Below, one piece after another: positions 23,451-28,400 of a stretch of DNA of 64,000 bases. The notes under the pieces are model-generated. The model saw only the letters and a program-made list of their open reading frames with translations. It was not told the origin of the DNA and did no database searches. Origin of the DNA: Paenibacillus tundrae (GTDB taxonomy: Bacteria > Bacillota > Bacilli > Paenibacillales > Paenibacillaceae); NCBI RefSeq assembly GCF_036884255.1, contig NZ_CP145605.1:4154001-4218000 (forward strand). Direction: 5' to 3'. Both the position numbers and the translations under genes were made by a program. How positions within the stretch are numbered: position 1 is the first letter of the stretch; every line of letters begins with the position of its first letter.

Positions 23451-26400
23451 CTAACTTAATCGAATAATATTCAGCGTAGCACCTGGCGGTGAAAGAACTG
23501 CTGTTGCGGCAATACCGAATAATTGGAGCTGAATCGTTGATCCTGCTGTCACTGTAACTATAAAGTCTGTACCTAACTGGCTTAGAGAAAGCAAAGGTGA
23601 TATAACACTTGCAGGAATAGCAGTTCCGTTGAGTACTATACGTGTTTGAACAGCAAGGGCAGCTGTGAGGTTGACTTTGTAACTGATATAGTAACGACCT
23701 GCAGTGGCTAGTGTGAATGTCTCACTCCCACCGCTGACAGTTATTCCTGTTCCTATATTTTGGTTCGTAGGAAGGGGTACCGCTGTTCCCCCTAAGAGAA
23801 CAAGAATCGTTCCATTGGAATTTTCTGCAAACGCTGATGTTTCAGTGACGGAGGTACCCGTAACACCTGTGATTCCTGTTGCGCCGGTGGCTCCGGTAAT
23901 ACCTGTTGCTCCCGTAACACCAGTCGCTCCTGTTGTACCTGTTACTCCTACGCCTGTGGCTCCCGTTACTCCAGTCACTCCAGTTGCACCTGTTACTCCT
24001 ACGCCTGTTGCCCCGGTAACACCAGTCGCTCCGGTTGTACCTGTTACTCCTACGCCTGTTCCCCCGGTAACACCAGTCGCTCCGGTCGCACCTGTTACTC
24101 CTACGCCTGTAGCCCCGGTAACACCAGTCGCTCCTGTTGTACCTGTTACTCCTACGCCTGTGGCTCCCGTTACTCCAGTCACTCCAGTTGCACCTGTTAC
24201 TCCTACGCCTGTTGCCCCGGTAACACCAGTCGCTCCGGTTGTACCTGTTACTCCTACGCCTGTTGCCCCGGTAACACCAGTCGCTCCGGTCGCACCTGTT
24301 ACTCCTACGCCTGTAGCCCCGGTAACACCAGTCGCTCCAGTTGCACCTGTTACTCCTACACCTGTGGCTCCCGTAACACCAGTCGCTCCAGTTGCACCTG
24401 TGACTCCTACGCCCGTGGCTCCAGTGATACCAGTCGCTCCGGTTTCTCCTGTTACTCCTACGCCTGTTGCCCCAGTGATACCAGTCACTCCAGTTGCACC
24501 TGTTACTCCTACGCCTGTGGCTCCCGTAACACCAGTCGCTCCGGTTTCTCCTGTTACTCCTACGCCTGTGGCTCCCGTAACACCAGTCGCTCCGGTTTCT
24601 CCTGTTACTCCTACGCCTGTGGCTCCCGTAACACCAGTCGCTCCGGTTTCTCCTGTTACTCCTACACCTGTGGCTCCCGTAACACCAGTCGCTCCGGTTT
24701 CTCCTGTTACTCCTACACCTGTGGCTCCCGTAACACCAGTCGCTCCGGTTTCTCCTGTTACTCCTACGCCTGTAGCCCCGGTGAAACCGGTCACTCCAGT
24801 TGCACCTGTTAGCCCAGTGGCTCCTGCACTCGCCAATAGGGTGTAATCTGGCGATGTGCCCGGGGTACCCGTTGGTGAAGCTACGTTTGCAACATACGTA
24901 CTTCCATTAAACGTGACTACCTGACCGGCTGGATACGTTGGTGCCACCGCTGGGTCAAATGCTACAATGCCGGTTAAGCCCGCACCGGTTGCTCCAGTTG
25001 CGCCCGTCACTCCAGTTCCAGTTGCTCCTGTAACTCCAGCTGTACCTGTTACTCCTGTGGCTCCTGCACTTGCCAATAACGTGTAATCTGGAGACGTGCC
25101 CGGTGTGCCCGTTGGTGAAGCTACATTTGCTATATACGTACTGCCATTAAACGTGACTACCTGACCCGCTGGATACGTCGGTGCCACCGCTGGATCGAAT
25201 GGTACACTGCCCGTTAAGCCTGCACCGGTCGCTCCAGTTGCGCCCGTCACTCCAGTTCCAGTTGCTCCTGTAACTCCAGCTGTACCTGTTACTCCTGTGG
25301 CTCCTGCACTTGCCAATAACGTGTAATCTGGTGATGTGCCCGGGGTACCCGTTGGTGAAGCTACGTTTGCAACATACGTACTTCCATTAAACGTGACTAC
25401 CTGACCGGCCGGATACGTCGGTGCCACCGCTGGATCAAATGCTACAATGCCCGTTAAACCTGCACCCGTAGCTCCAGTTGCGCCCGTCACTCCAGCTCCA
25501 GTTGCTCCTGTAACTCCAGCTGTACCTGTTACTCCTGTGGCTCCTGCACTCGCCAATAACGTGTAATCTGGCGATGTGCCCGGGGTACCCGTTGGTGAAG
25601 CTACGTTTGCAACATACGTACTTCCATTAAACGTGACTACCTGACCGGCTGGATACGTTGGTGCAACGGCTGGGTCAAATGCTACAATGCCGGTTAAACC
25701 TGCACCGGTCGCTCCAGTTGCGCCCGTCACTCCAGCTCCCGTTGCTCCTGTAACTCCAGCTGTACCTGTTACTCCTGTGGCTCCTGCACTCGCCAATAAC
25801 GTGTAATCTGGCGACGTACCCGGGGTGCCCGTTGGTGCTGCCACATTTGCAATATACGTACTACCGTTAAACGTAACTATCTGACCGACCGGATACGTTG
25901 GTGCCACGGCTGGATCGAATGGTACAATGCCCGTTAAGCCTGCGCCGGTCGCTCCCGTTAAACCAGTTGCACCTGTCGTACCAACGCCCGTTGCTCCTGT
26001 AACTCCAGTGGCTCCTGCACTTGCCAATAACGTGTAATCTGGAGACGTGCCCGGTGTGCCCGTTGGTGAAGCTACGTTTGCAACATACGTACTGCCATTA
26101 AACGTGACTACCTGACCAGCCGGATACGTTGGTGCCACCGCTGGGTCAAATGCCACAATACCGGTTAAGCCTGCGCCGGTTGCTCCTGTTAAACCAGTTG
26201 CACCCGTAGCTCCAGTTGCTCCTGTAACTCCAGCTGTACCTGTTACTCCTGTGGCTCCTGCACTCGCCAATAACGTGTAATCTGGAGACGTGCCCGGTGT
26301 GCCCGTTGGTGAAGCTACGTTTGCAACATACGTACTGCCATTAAACGTGACTACCTGACCAGCCGGATACGTCGGTGCCACCGCTGGATCGAATGGTACA

Positions 26401-28400
26401 ATGCCCGTTAAGCCTGCGCCGGTCGCTCCTGTTAAACCAGTTGCACCTGTCGTACCAACCCCTGTTGCTCCCGTAACCCCAGCTATACCTGTTACCCCGG
26501 TAGCTCCTGCACTCGCCAATAACGTGTAATCTGGAGACGTGCCCGGGGTGCCCGTCGGTGAAGCTACATTTGCTATATACGTACTGCCATTAAACGTAAC
26601 TACCTGACCCGCTGGATACGTTGGTGCTACTGCCGGGTCAAATGGCAGAATCCCACTTAATCCTACACCGGTTGCTCCCGTACCGCCTGTTGCTCCTGTC
26701 GTACCAACCCCTGTTGCTCCCGTAACCCCAGCTATACCTGTTACCCCGGTAGCTCCTGCACTCGCCAATAACGTGTAATCTGGCGATGTGCCCGGGGTGC
26801 CCGTTGGCGCTGCCACATTCGCAACATACGTACTGCCATTAAACGTAACTACCTGACCCGCTGGATACGTTGGTGCTACTGCCGGGTCAAATGGCAGAAT
26901 CCCACTTAGTCCTACACCGGTCACTCCCGTACCGCCTGTTGCTCCTGTCGCACCAGAACCTGTGGCACCAGTCGCCCCTGTGCCACCTGTTATTCCTGCA
27001 CTCGCCAACAACGTGTAATCTGGCGATGTGCCCGGGGTGCCCGTTGGCGAAGCTACGTTCGTAACAAACGTACTTCCATTAAACGTTACAACTTGGCCCG
27101 AAGAATACGTCGGTGCCAATGCTGGATCAAATGGTACAATGCCACTTAAACCTACACCTGTAGTTCCTGTCACACCCGTTACACCTGTTGCTCCTGTAGG
27201 ACCGGCACCTGCTAATAATGTGTAATCTAGCGATGTACCCGGTGTTCCCGCGGGCGAAGCTACATTCGTAATATACGTACTACCGTTATATGTCACAACC
27301 TGACCAGCCGGATATGTTGGTGCCTGAGCTGGATCAAAGGCAAGTGCACCACCAAGCCCTATACCCGTTGCTCCGGTTGCACCTGTTGTTCCTGCACCAG
27401 CAAGTAAGGTGTAATCTGAAGATGTGCCTGGTGTTCCCAATGGACCGGCTACACTTGATATATAAGTACTTCCATTAAACGTGACCACTTGACCTGCCGC
27501 ATACGAGGGAGCAGATGCTGGATCAAAGGGAACCGAACCAGACAGCCCAACACCAGTCGCACCTGTAGCTCCTGTTGTGCCAGCCAAAAGCAACAAGCTA
27601 TAATCTGGAGAACTGCCTGGAATTCCAATTGGACCATTTACATCAACAACATAAACACTCCCATTGAAACTAACAACCTGGCCTTGGGCGTACGATGGGG
27701 CAAGAGCCGGATCAAATACGGTAATGTTGTTCAAACCAGTACCCGGAGCGCCTGCCGATCCCTGTGGTCCTTGAATCCCTTGTGGCCCCTGCGGGCCAAT
27801 CGGACCTACTGGCCCAGCTACTCCCGCAGTACCATTTGTTCCTGGAGGCCCCGCTGGTCCTGGTACGCCTGGAACGCCGGGAACACCTGGTACACCTGGT
27901 GCTCCAGGTGGCCCAGCTGGGCCAGTAATTCCTGATGAGCCAAATGTTGTCGTTGCTCTACTAAGTGACACAGATATGGAACGAATTAATCCTACCAGAT
28001 TATCTTTTTCTGCCGGAGCAATTTCAAGCAGCAAAGTTACACTTAATAAGTCATCTAACAGATTTTGTAGGTTACCTGCCAAATTAATCAAAGCTACCGG
28101 AACAACTTCCGAACCTGCAATACTTAACTCTAACACAGCTTGAAGTTCCGCCTTTACTCCAGCACGAAATCCTGAATCGTTAACAAAGGCAAGCAAGTTC
28201 TTCAATCCAGTTTGTAATGTACTTATATTGGATGCCGTAGGTTGACTAATAGCTGCTGGAATACTAATGGCAAGGGTTCGCAAGATCGCTTCAAACTGTT
28301 CCCTTTCACTTTCGGTTATTGGAATAAATGGAGAACCTGCTCTAAACGATCTACCGTCCAAAAATGCCTTAATATTTACTCTTTTGCGCCGATCGGACAT
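23451..28400 (-). CDS. Giant collagen-like mosaic protein with 13 repeated modules and a BclA-type C-terminal domain
   Basis: A 1649-residue protein, by far the largest here. (a) Residues 1-155: a helical domain ([21 protein letters not shown]). (b) About 157-222: a Pro-rich collagen tract ([13 protein letters not shown]). (c) About 223-1190: thirteen modules built on [22 protein letters not shown] ... [15 protein letters not shown], separated by Gly-X-Thr collagen linkers; most units are 80 residues (240 nt). Their resemblance to small carbohydrate-binding modules (AYxxGQxVxYNGxxY) suggests glycan binding, an inference. (d) About 1190-1510: Gly-X-Y with Thr at most Y positions. (e) About 1511-1649: a beta-rich domain starting SAFAENSNG, like BclA C1q-type heads. 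It has a GGAGG ribosome binding site but no signal peptide or anchor motif is obvious. Spore-surface or exosporium filament is the best guess. Confidence 0.85.
23900..24790 (-). repeat. 51-nt (17-residue) tandem repeat in the collagen tract
   Basis: Sixteen consecutive units of 17 residues, such as [17 protein letters not shown], differing mainly at the fifth residue (E, A or T) and at a Val/Ile position. Each unit is five Gly-X-Y triplets plus GV, so the register slips once per unit. Tandem duplication at the DNA level is clear from the 51-nt spacing of ACTCCTACGCCTGT on the plus strand. Confidence 0.9.
24830..27730 (-). repeat. About 240-nt tandem repeats encoding thirteen modules
   Basis: Successive copies of GTGTAATCTGG followed by GTGCCCGG recur every 240 nt between about 24840 and 25800. 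The spacing then varies slightly to about 27610, in units of 190 to 250 nt. Units near the middle of the gene are nearly identical, while those near the N-terminus (plus-strand 27000 and above) are more divergent. This is the pattern of recent expansion from one end. Confidence 0.88.

Follow-up and report, generated by a model that had tools for sequence, protein, structure and literature searches.

Bacterial collagens, as a review describes them, generally consist of one collagen region flanked by two end domains, with the pneumococcal protein PclA as the interspersed case. The BclA/Bcl exosporium glycoproteins, which carry a BclA_C head (PF18573) on a Gly-X-Thr collagen stalk, are among the systems closest to the protein described here, and both elements recur in it. 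For B. thuringiensis BclA, PMC11952670 gives a collagen helix of 37 nm and a rise of 2.8 A per residue. Also close are the CBM5/12 modules of SmChiB, ChiC and ChiA1, which share a sequence profile and a predicted fold with the modules of our protein. According to PMC8449059, nearly all CBM5 sequences keep a pair of aromatics with a well-established role in binding, and the core is made up of a Tyr and a Trp.

A collagen protein with thirteen inserted modules

The 64-kb window (the whole stretch of 64,000 nucleotides of Paenibacillus tundrae DNA that was analysed) contains a single open reading frame at 23451-28400 of the reverse strand, on which all features below also lie. Its 1649-aa product opens with a helical preface and a short collagen tract, continues with 13 modules, and closes with a long collagen tract that leads into a BclA C-terminal head. 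The protein is rich in Thr (315 residues), has 6 Lys and lacks both Cys and Trp.

Residues 1-27 (28320-28400) form a conserved N-terminal peptide, for which model confidence is mostly low; it may be a docking peptide, perhaps to the spore. The preface proper (residues 28-153; 27942-28319) matches NF033172 at 8e-27 and is predicted to be an all-helical bundle; Foldseek returned no meaningful match for it (best E 0.15, TM about 0.3-0.4), which is no proof of a new fold. Here the protein may depart from BclA: an NCBIfam search at E<=1, with a library that presumably includes a short exosporium-leader model, reported no such family on it, and a different conserved peptide stands at its N-terminus. 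By eye, no signal peptide was seen. A Pro-rich collagen tract follows (residues 154-221; 27738-27941).

The modules, 42 aa each (about 50 with flanks) and of the form FDPA...DY[TS]LL, span 24834-27716. In protein order they lie at 27591-27716, 27402-27527, 27213-27338 and 27006-27131 (modules 1 to 4), 26766-26891, 26517-26642, 26268-26393 and 26025-26150 (5 to 8), 25794-25919, 25554-25679 and 25314-25439 (9 to 11, the last being the centre of the modelled 50-aa stretch 25296-25445), and 25074-25199 and 24834-24959 (12 and 13). The 12 linkers between them measure 21-41 aa and are mostly Gly-X-Thr. The long collagen tract (residues 1190-1515, 326 aa; 23856-24833) contains 97 Gly-X-Y triplets, nearly all Gly-X-Thr, and is interrupted 17 times by GVG, as a rule once in each 17-residue (51-bp) unit. 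The Gly-X-Y region matches Pfam Collagen at 3.8e-25. TRF independently finds both periodicities, 240 bp across 24793-27158 and 51 bp across 23902-24811. The protein ends in the BclA C-terminal domain (residues 1524-1649; 23454-23831; PF18573, 5e-41), the match covering 2-128 of the 128 model positions, and 1wck also matches it, at 1.6e-10.

The first-pass annotation had read this gene as thirteen modules on collagen linkers, and its count and coordinates were right. The region it marked takes in the array and omits the preface, the first collagen tract, most of the C-terminal tract and the BclA_C head. It had also judged the alternation to be unlike BclA, and in fact 13 modules of CBM5/12 fold here break up the collagen stalk. 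Compared with the 37 nm helix of BclA, collagen and linkers amount to about 809 aa (68 + 415 + 326).

Constraint, turnover and lost aromatics in the modules

Profile and predicted fold together support homology of the modules to CBM5/12 carbohydrate-binding modules. Pfam CBM_5_12 matches 13 stretches of the protein (2.2e-44 for the whole protein). Taken singly in a genome scan, none of the window modules passes the cut-off of 26.2 bits (best, 23.5 bits), 10 of the 13 reach E<=0.001, and one module tested alone scored 24.3 bits; all 69 aligned modules match the profile at E<=0.1. Only in 21 central columns can the alignment to the profile be relied on (hhalign probability 94); towards the C-terminus it is a forced global alignment of probability 28. 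Comparison of a predicted module structure with carbohydrate-binding families, which had been suggested at the outset, gave a CBM5/12 fold (pLDDT 94) whose best structural match is the SmChiB chitin-binding domain.

The known sugar-stacking aromatics, judged from sequence, are lost from nearly all modules. Module aromatics occupy positions 3, 11, 19, 24 and 41, and 406 of 410 modules have none at positions 25-40; in the other four an aromatic stands at 30, 37 or 38. These modules come from a set of 412, drawn from 51 sources by a pattern that demanded aromatics near 11 and 24 as well as, near 19, either an aromatic or His or Leu, in frames with at least 2 collagen runs, so that the required features are partly built in, while positions 25-40 were left unconstrained; two modules of SLH type, from L187 and L195, are not counted in the 410. 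By eye, modules that escaped the pattern (L178, L179, L182, L188, L189, L191, L095) have no aromatic at 25-40 either; those of L188, L189 and L191 lie in collagen-like frames. The motifs WEP and ALW occur in 9/9 CBM5/12 sequences recovered from this genus, a count limited to the sequences retrieved, from 24 matches at 20 loci, by a pattern needing a Q/T-A-H-T/S stretch, the other 11 loci lying outside it. In the weak global profile alignment the WEP Trp pairs with module Gly33, which is Gly in 410/410 modules. A Trp is found in 1 of 412 modules, and the 1649-residue window protein has none; the invariant positions of the modules include polar and glycine ones. Thus, with the aromatics at 25-40 and the WEP Trp gone, the known CBM5/12 binding platform is missing. 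Glycan binding, which the first-pass annotation had proposed for the array, is not supported; a non-classical sugar site elsewhere on the module is possible, as is a lectin role, which is not the default reading, and we favour a structural bead.

The array is under constraint and also in motion. Modules 5-13 share 85-98% DNA identity and 90-100% protein identity among themselves, and modules 1-4 are more divergent, with 60-87% DNA identity to other modules. The claim of near-identity at the DNA level is therefore right only in part, and overstated, because what is preserved is the protein: from module 4 onwards in 30 arrays, pooled divergence amounts to 0.486 at synonymous and 0.0315 at nonsynonymous sites (pN/pS 0.065, on which we rely because a mean per-array dN/dS of 0.042 rests on saturated distances). 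With nonsynonymous so far below synonymous divergence, each module copy is kept at the protein level. The 30 arrays, of 6-20 modules each, include some whose frame is broken or which contain gaps or meet a contig end (L071, L073, L087, L090, L104), and in L087 the modules of its two frames were counted in one list. The nearest DNA neighbour of module 1 is the same-position module of another genome in 29/30 arrays, as it is for module 2 (29/30) and module 3 (25/30). For modules 6 and later, the nearest relative lies within the same array in 125 of 194 cases. Compared with a same-species draft (G034, with gaps in the gene), the inner modules have no one-to-one correspondence. Because later modules mostly resemble their own array and modules 1-3 mostly match their position elsewhere, array turnover is real, in keeping with the suggestion that the array is expanding or being homogenised; by sequence comparison, its N-terminal end is mostly fixed and the remainder turns over.

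Locus, upstream region and carriers of the module

The gene lies among resDE, cytochrome c biogenesis-like genes and serA (named from their translations). The module is present in 48 of 75 genomes of the genus. Across the family it occurs in 109 of 394 genomes, which represent 9 of 19 genera, and a sample of the class gave 25 of 398 genomes, from 6 of 145 genera, at E<=1e-5. At 40 same-genus loci searched by tblastn, serA and resE both adjoin in 32, resE alone in 2 (contig ends) and neither in 6, which are other collagen genes. In all 8 module-less genomes examined (of 27), the gap between serA and resE is a few hundred bases, too short for the gene to fit. Deep relatives with 2-4 modules and a different C-terminal head occupy the resE-serA slot in L095, L096, L099 and L102; the head of L096 has no Pfam or NCBIfam match. 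The window genome is assembled as a single contig. So are further genomes of the genus that carry arrays of 6-17 modules at the resE-serA locus. Assembly collapse or expansion as the source of the array, a concern raised by the first-pass annotation, is thereby excluded.

Upstream of the gene stands a -10-like motif, CATATGCTTG (28436-28445), whose CATA is invariant in 31/31 aligned upstream regions; across these regions the element has the form CATA[AT]G.TT, and TGTCCAAGATAA is invariant too. A -10 element of the CATA type is characteristic of mother-cell sigma factors, and the motif fits spore-coat-like expression, though it does not prove it. The window contains CATAWGCTTG three times, against 0.37 expected by shuffling, and two of these copies fall within other reading frames, so the motif alone is weak evidence. 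Further upstream, the near-palindrome TTGTTCAACGTGGAAC (28505-28520) is mostly conserved, with few changes, and has its sole exact genome copy here. A hairpin followed by a T run (28541-28567), read from the sequence, is the probable resE terminator and is absent from the terminator scan on this strand; that scan and a sigma-70 scan gave nothing informative. Together, the BclA_C head, the lack of a visible signal peptide and the conserved CATA-type motif make a spore location of the protein plausible.

The same module is also found behind several other N-termini. In other genera it accompanies another NF033172 preface (L178, 2.8e-17), Arg/Lys-rich N-termini (L180-L183, L194), N-termini of the M[ST]QPNLPNITP type (L184, L190, L193; VSQPNLPNITP in L139), an S-layer homology N-terminus (L187, Pfam 5e-14, with L195 resembling it by eye) and Cu_amine_oxidN1 (L188, 3e-14, with L189 and L191 resembling it by eye). 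Several of the C-terminal heads are BclA-like by eye, and that of L185 is BclB-related (TIGR03721, 5.6e-40). Its presence in an S-layer-type protein means that the module is not restricted to spore proteins. A plasmid scan gave one record, from B. velezensis.

A phage origin of the module was considered and rejected on sequence: one module had no tblastn match at E 0.01 in a phage collection of 50,697 records, and blastn gave none; yet a scan of viral contigs with one module found three loci. Two of these, L270 and L272, have the collagen gene after genes for a holin (3.9e-31 and 3.7e-30, respectively) and an Amidase_2 endolysin (3.2e-21 and 2.3e-26); in L270 a BppU baseplate protein (2.3e-24) also precedes it. 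Every match lies near a contig end, so these loci may be host DNA beyond a prophage.

A proposed segmented fibre, its rivals and its relatives

We propose that the protein forms a BclA-type homotrimeric collagen fibre on the spore surface with structural beads derived from CBM5/12, a reading to which we give a probability of roughly 0.55. The N-terminal peptide and helical preface would anchor the fibre, and the BclA_C head at its far end would seed trimerisation. Between them, the stalk would be split into short Gly-X-Thr triple-helical segments joined by beads, three of which would meet at each node, hold the proline-poor triple helix in register, and also stiffen and lengthen the stalk. Gain and loss of modules on the C-terminal side, with the first three mostly fixed, would tune fibre length. 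The analysis itself establishes the architecture, the homology, the predicted fold, the aromatic loss, the constraint, the turnover and the conserved locus. The trimer, spore location, anchoring and register-keeping are what we infer within this model. Since the sugar-stacking residues are lost and the copies are nevertheless held almost unchanged, the main job of the bead is most likely structural, to which weak adhesion or bead-bead contact between fibres might be added. At 2.8 A per residue, the 68 + 415 + 326 collagen and linker residues give a stalk of up to about 0.2-0.25 micrometres, an upper bound because the linker ends are not strict Gly-X-Y.

The same constraint on every copy would also be expected of a multivalent lectin, in which beads bind glycan weakly through a non-classical site and 13 of them (39 per trimer) give avidity towards a fungal, insect or plant polysaccharide. 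CBM5/12 homology and fold, the invariant polar and glycine positions, and a copy number that varies as it should if avidity were tuned all speak for such a fibre. However, nearly all modules lack both the chitin-binding aromatic pair of CBM5 (PMC8449059) and the WEP Trp seen in CBM5/12 sequences of the genus; where an aromatic does occur within 25-40, in four modules, it is at 30, 37 or 38; and Trp is virtually missing. This leaves the lectin an unlikely contender, though a serious one.

Near-identity of beads within and between genomes suits self-recognition as well, and beads could pack against those of neighbouring fibres, bundling the nap or clumping spores, much as has been proposed for the tip fibrils of endospore appendages. 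In PMC4319854, knock-outs of the collagen-like genes ClpA-D in B. amyloliquefaciens FZB42, whose products may or may not carry this module, altered autoaggregation and root adhesion, and PMC11952670 proposes F-BclA as a mediator of spore clustering. Our results do not separate such homotypic adhesion from a structural bead; we consider it improbable. That the array is an assembly or repeat artefact, or a decaying repeat of no function, is scarcely credible: it is split over at least 2 reading frames in L071, L087, L090 and L097, with unknown bases in L087, but it is open in many genomes, several of them one-contig, at a single locus, and its protein was kept while synonymous sites diverged.

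Taken further, the structural bead leads to a broader picture that we hold only tentatively and regard as doubtful in its entirety: a sugar-binding domain that lost its binding residues and was put to new use as a trimer knot, repeated along bacterial collagen. The outcome would be a segmented collagen filament, at most some 0.2-0.25 micrometres long, that evolves longer or shorter with the number of its beads, and throughout Bacilli the bead would be shared among fibres of the spore, fibres anchored to the S-layer and cargo genes of prophages. A design that repeats a small folded bead up to 20 times, in 48 of the 75 genomes of the genus and against the usual single collagen region, offers a natural experiment on how long triple helices with little proline are kept in register by bacteria, as well as ready-made beads for designed collagen. 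It also means that a 'carbohydrate-binding' annotation can mislead once the binding residues are gone.

Among known systems, the CBM5/12 modules of SmChiB, ChiC and ChiA1 differ from ours in that the latter are embedded in collagen instead of an enzyme and have lost the sugar-stacking aromatics in nearly all cases. Phage tail fibres and tailspikes with CBM5/12-like modules (9rkv, 7eea, 5js4, 8kec; PHROG 5073) place a similar bead fold in fibrous proteins, some of which are named 'Collagen triple helix repeat'; the PHROG matches are probably due in part to the collagen tracts, and the window gene has no phage genes, tail genes included, among its neighbours. PclA has a large C-terminal domain with an LPXTG motif, and an array of one repeated module is not described for it in the review passage on it. 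Bacillus velezensis WP_129093701.1 (L139) has modules of the same kind and a C-terminal end that is BclA-like by eye, but it differs from the window protein in its N-terminus VSQPNLPNITP, in having only three modules and in an adjoining glycosyltransferase gene. Our literature search, which covered few subscription journals, found no description of the alternation of module and collagen. The component parts were already known, and it is their alternation that appears to be new.

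Head and stalk of the array protein

In four relatives (L095, L096, L099 and L102), the array gene occupies the same slot between resE and serA and carries the N-terminal preface and the modules as in the window gene, with a different C-terminal head. We read these loci as cases in which the head was exchanged and the gene kept its position. The head of L096 gave no match when Pfam and NCBIfam were searched. Between the last module and the head, the long collagen tract of the window gene (23856-24833) contains 17 GVG interruptions. Because these generally recur once every 17 residues, a 51-bp unit, the triple helix would be kinked or shifted at regular spacing.

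Reading frames and upstream region

The array gene is split over at least two reading frames in the relatives L071, L087, L090 and L097, and in L087 it also contains unknown bases. These multi-frame arrays may reflect sequencing error, decay or slippage-based switching. Upstream, a near-palindrome, TTGTTCAACGTGGAAC (window 28505-28520), lies between the resE terminator and the array gene and is mostly conserved at this position within the genus.

Collagen-module genes on viral contigs and in Bacillus velezensis

Collagen-module genes with a Cys-rich N-terminus are also found on three viral contigs (L270:3671-5059, L271:3515-5020 and L272:3689-4054). The gene is preceded by holin and endolysin genes in L270 and L272, and by a single replication-type gene with an HTH in L271. 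Since all three genes lie close to a contig end, the bead may be a travelling prophage cargo, or the genes may be host DNA past the prophage. In B. velezensis, a glycosyltransferase gene (L139:6279-7406) sits directly downstream of the collagen-module gene, on the opposite strand; its product is a candidate enzyme for adding sugars to the Thr-rich stalk.
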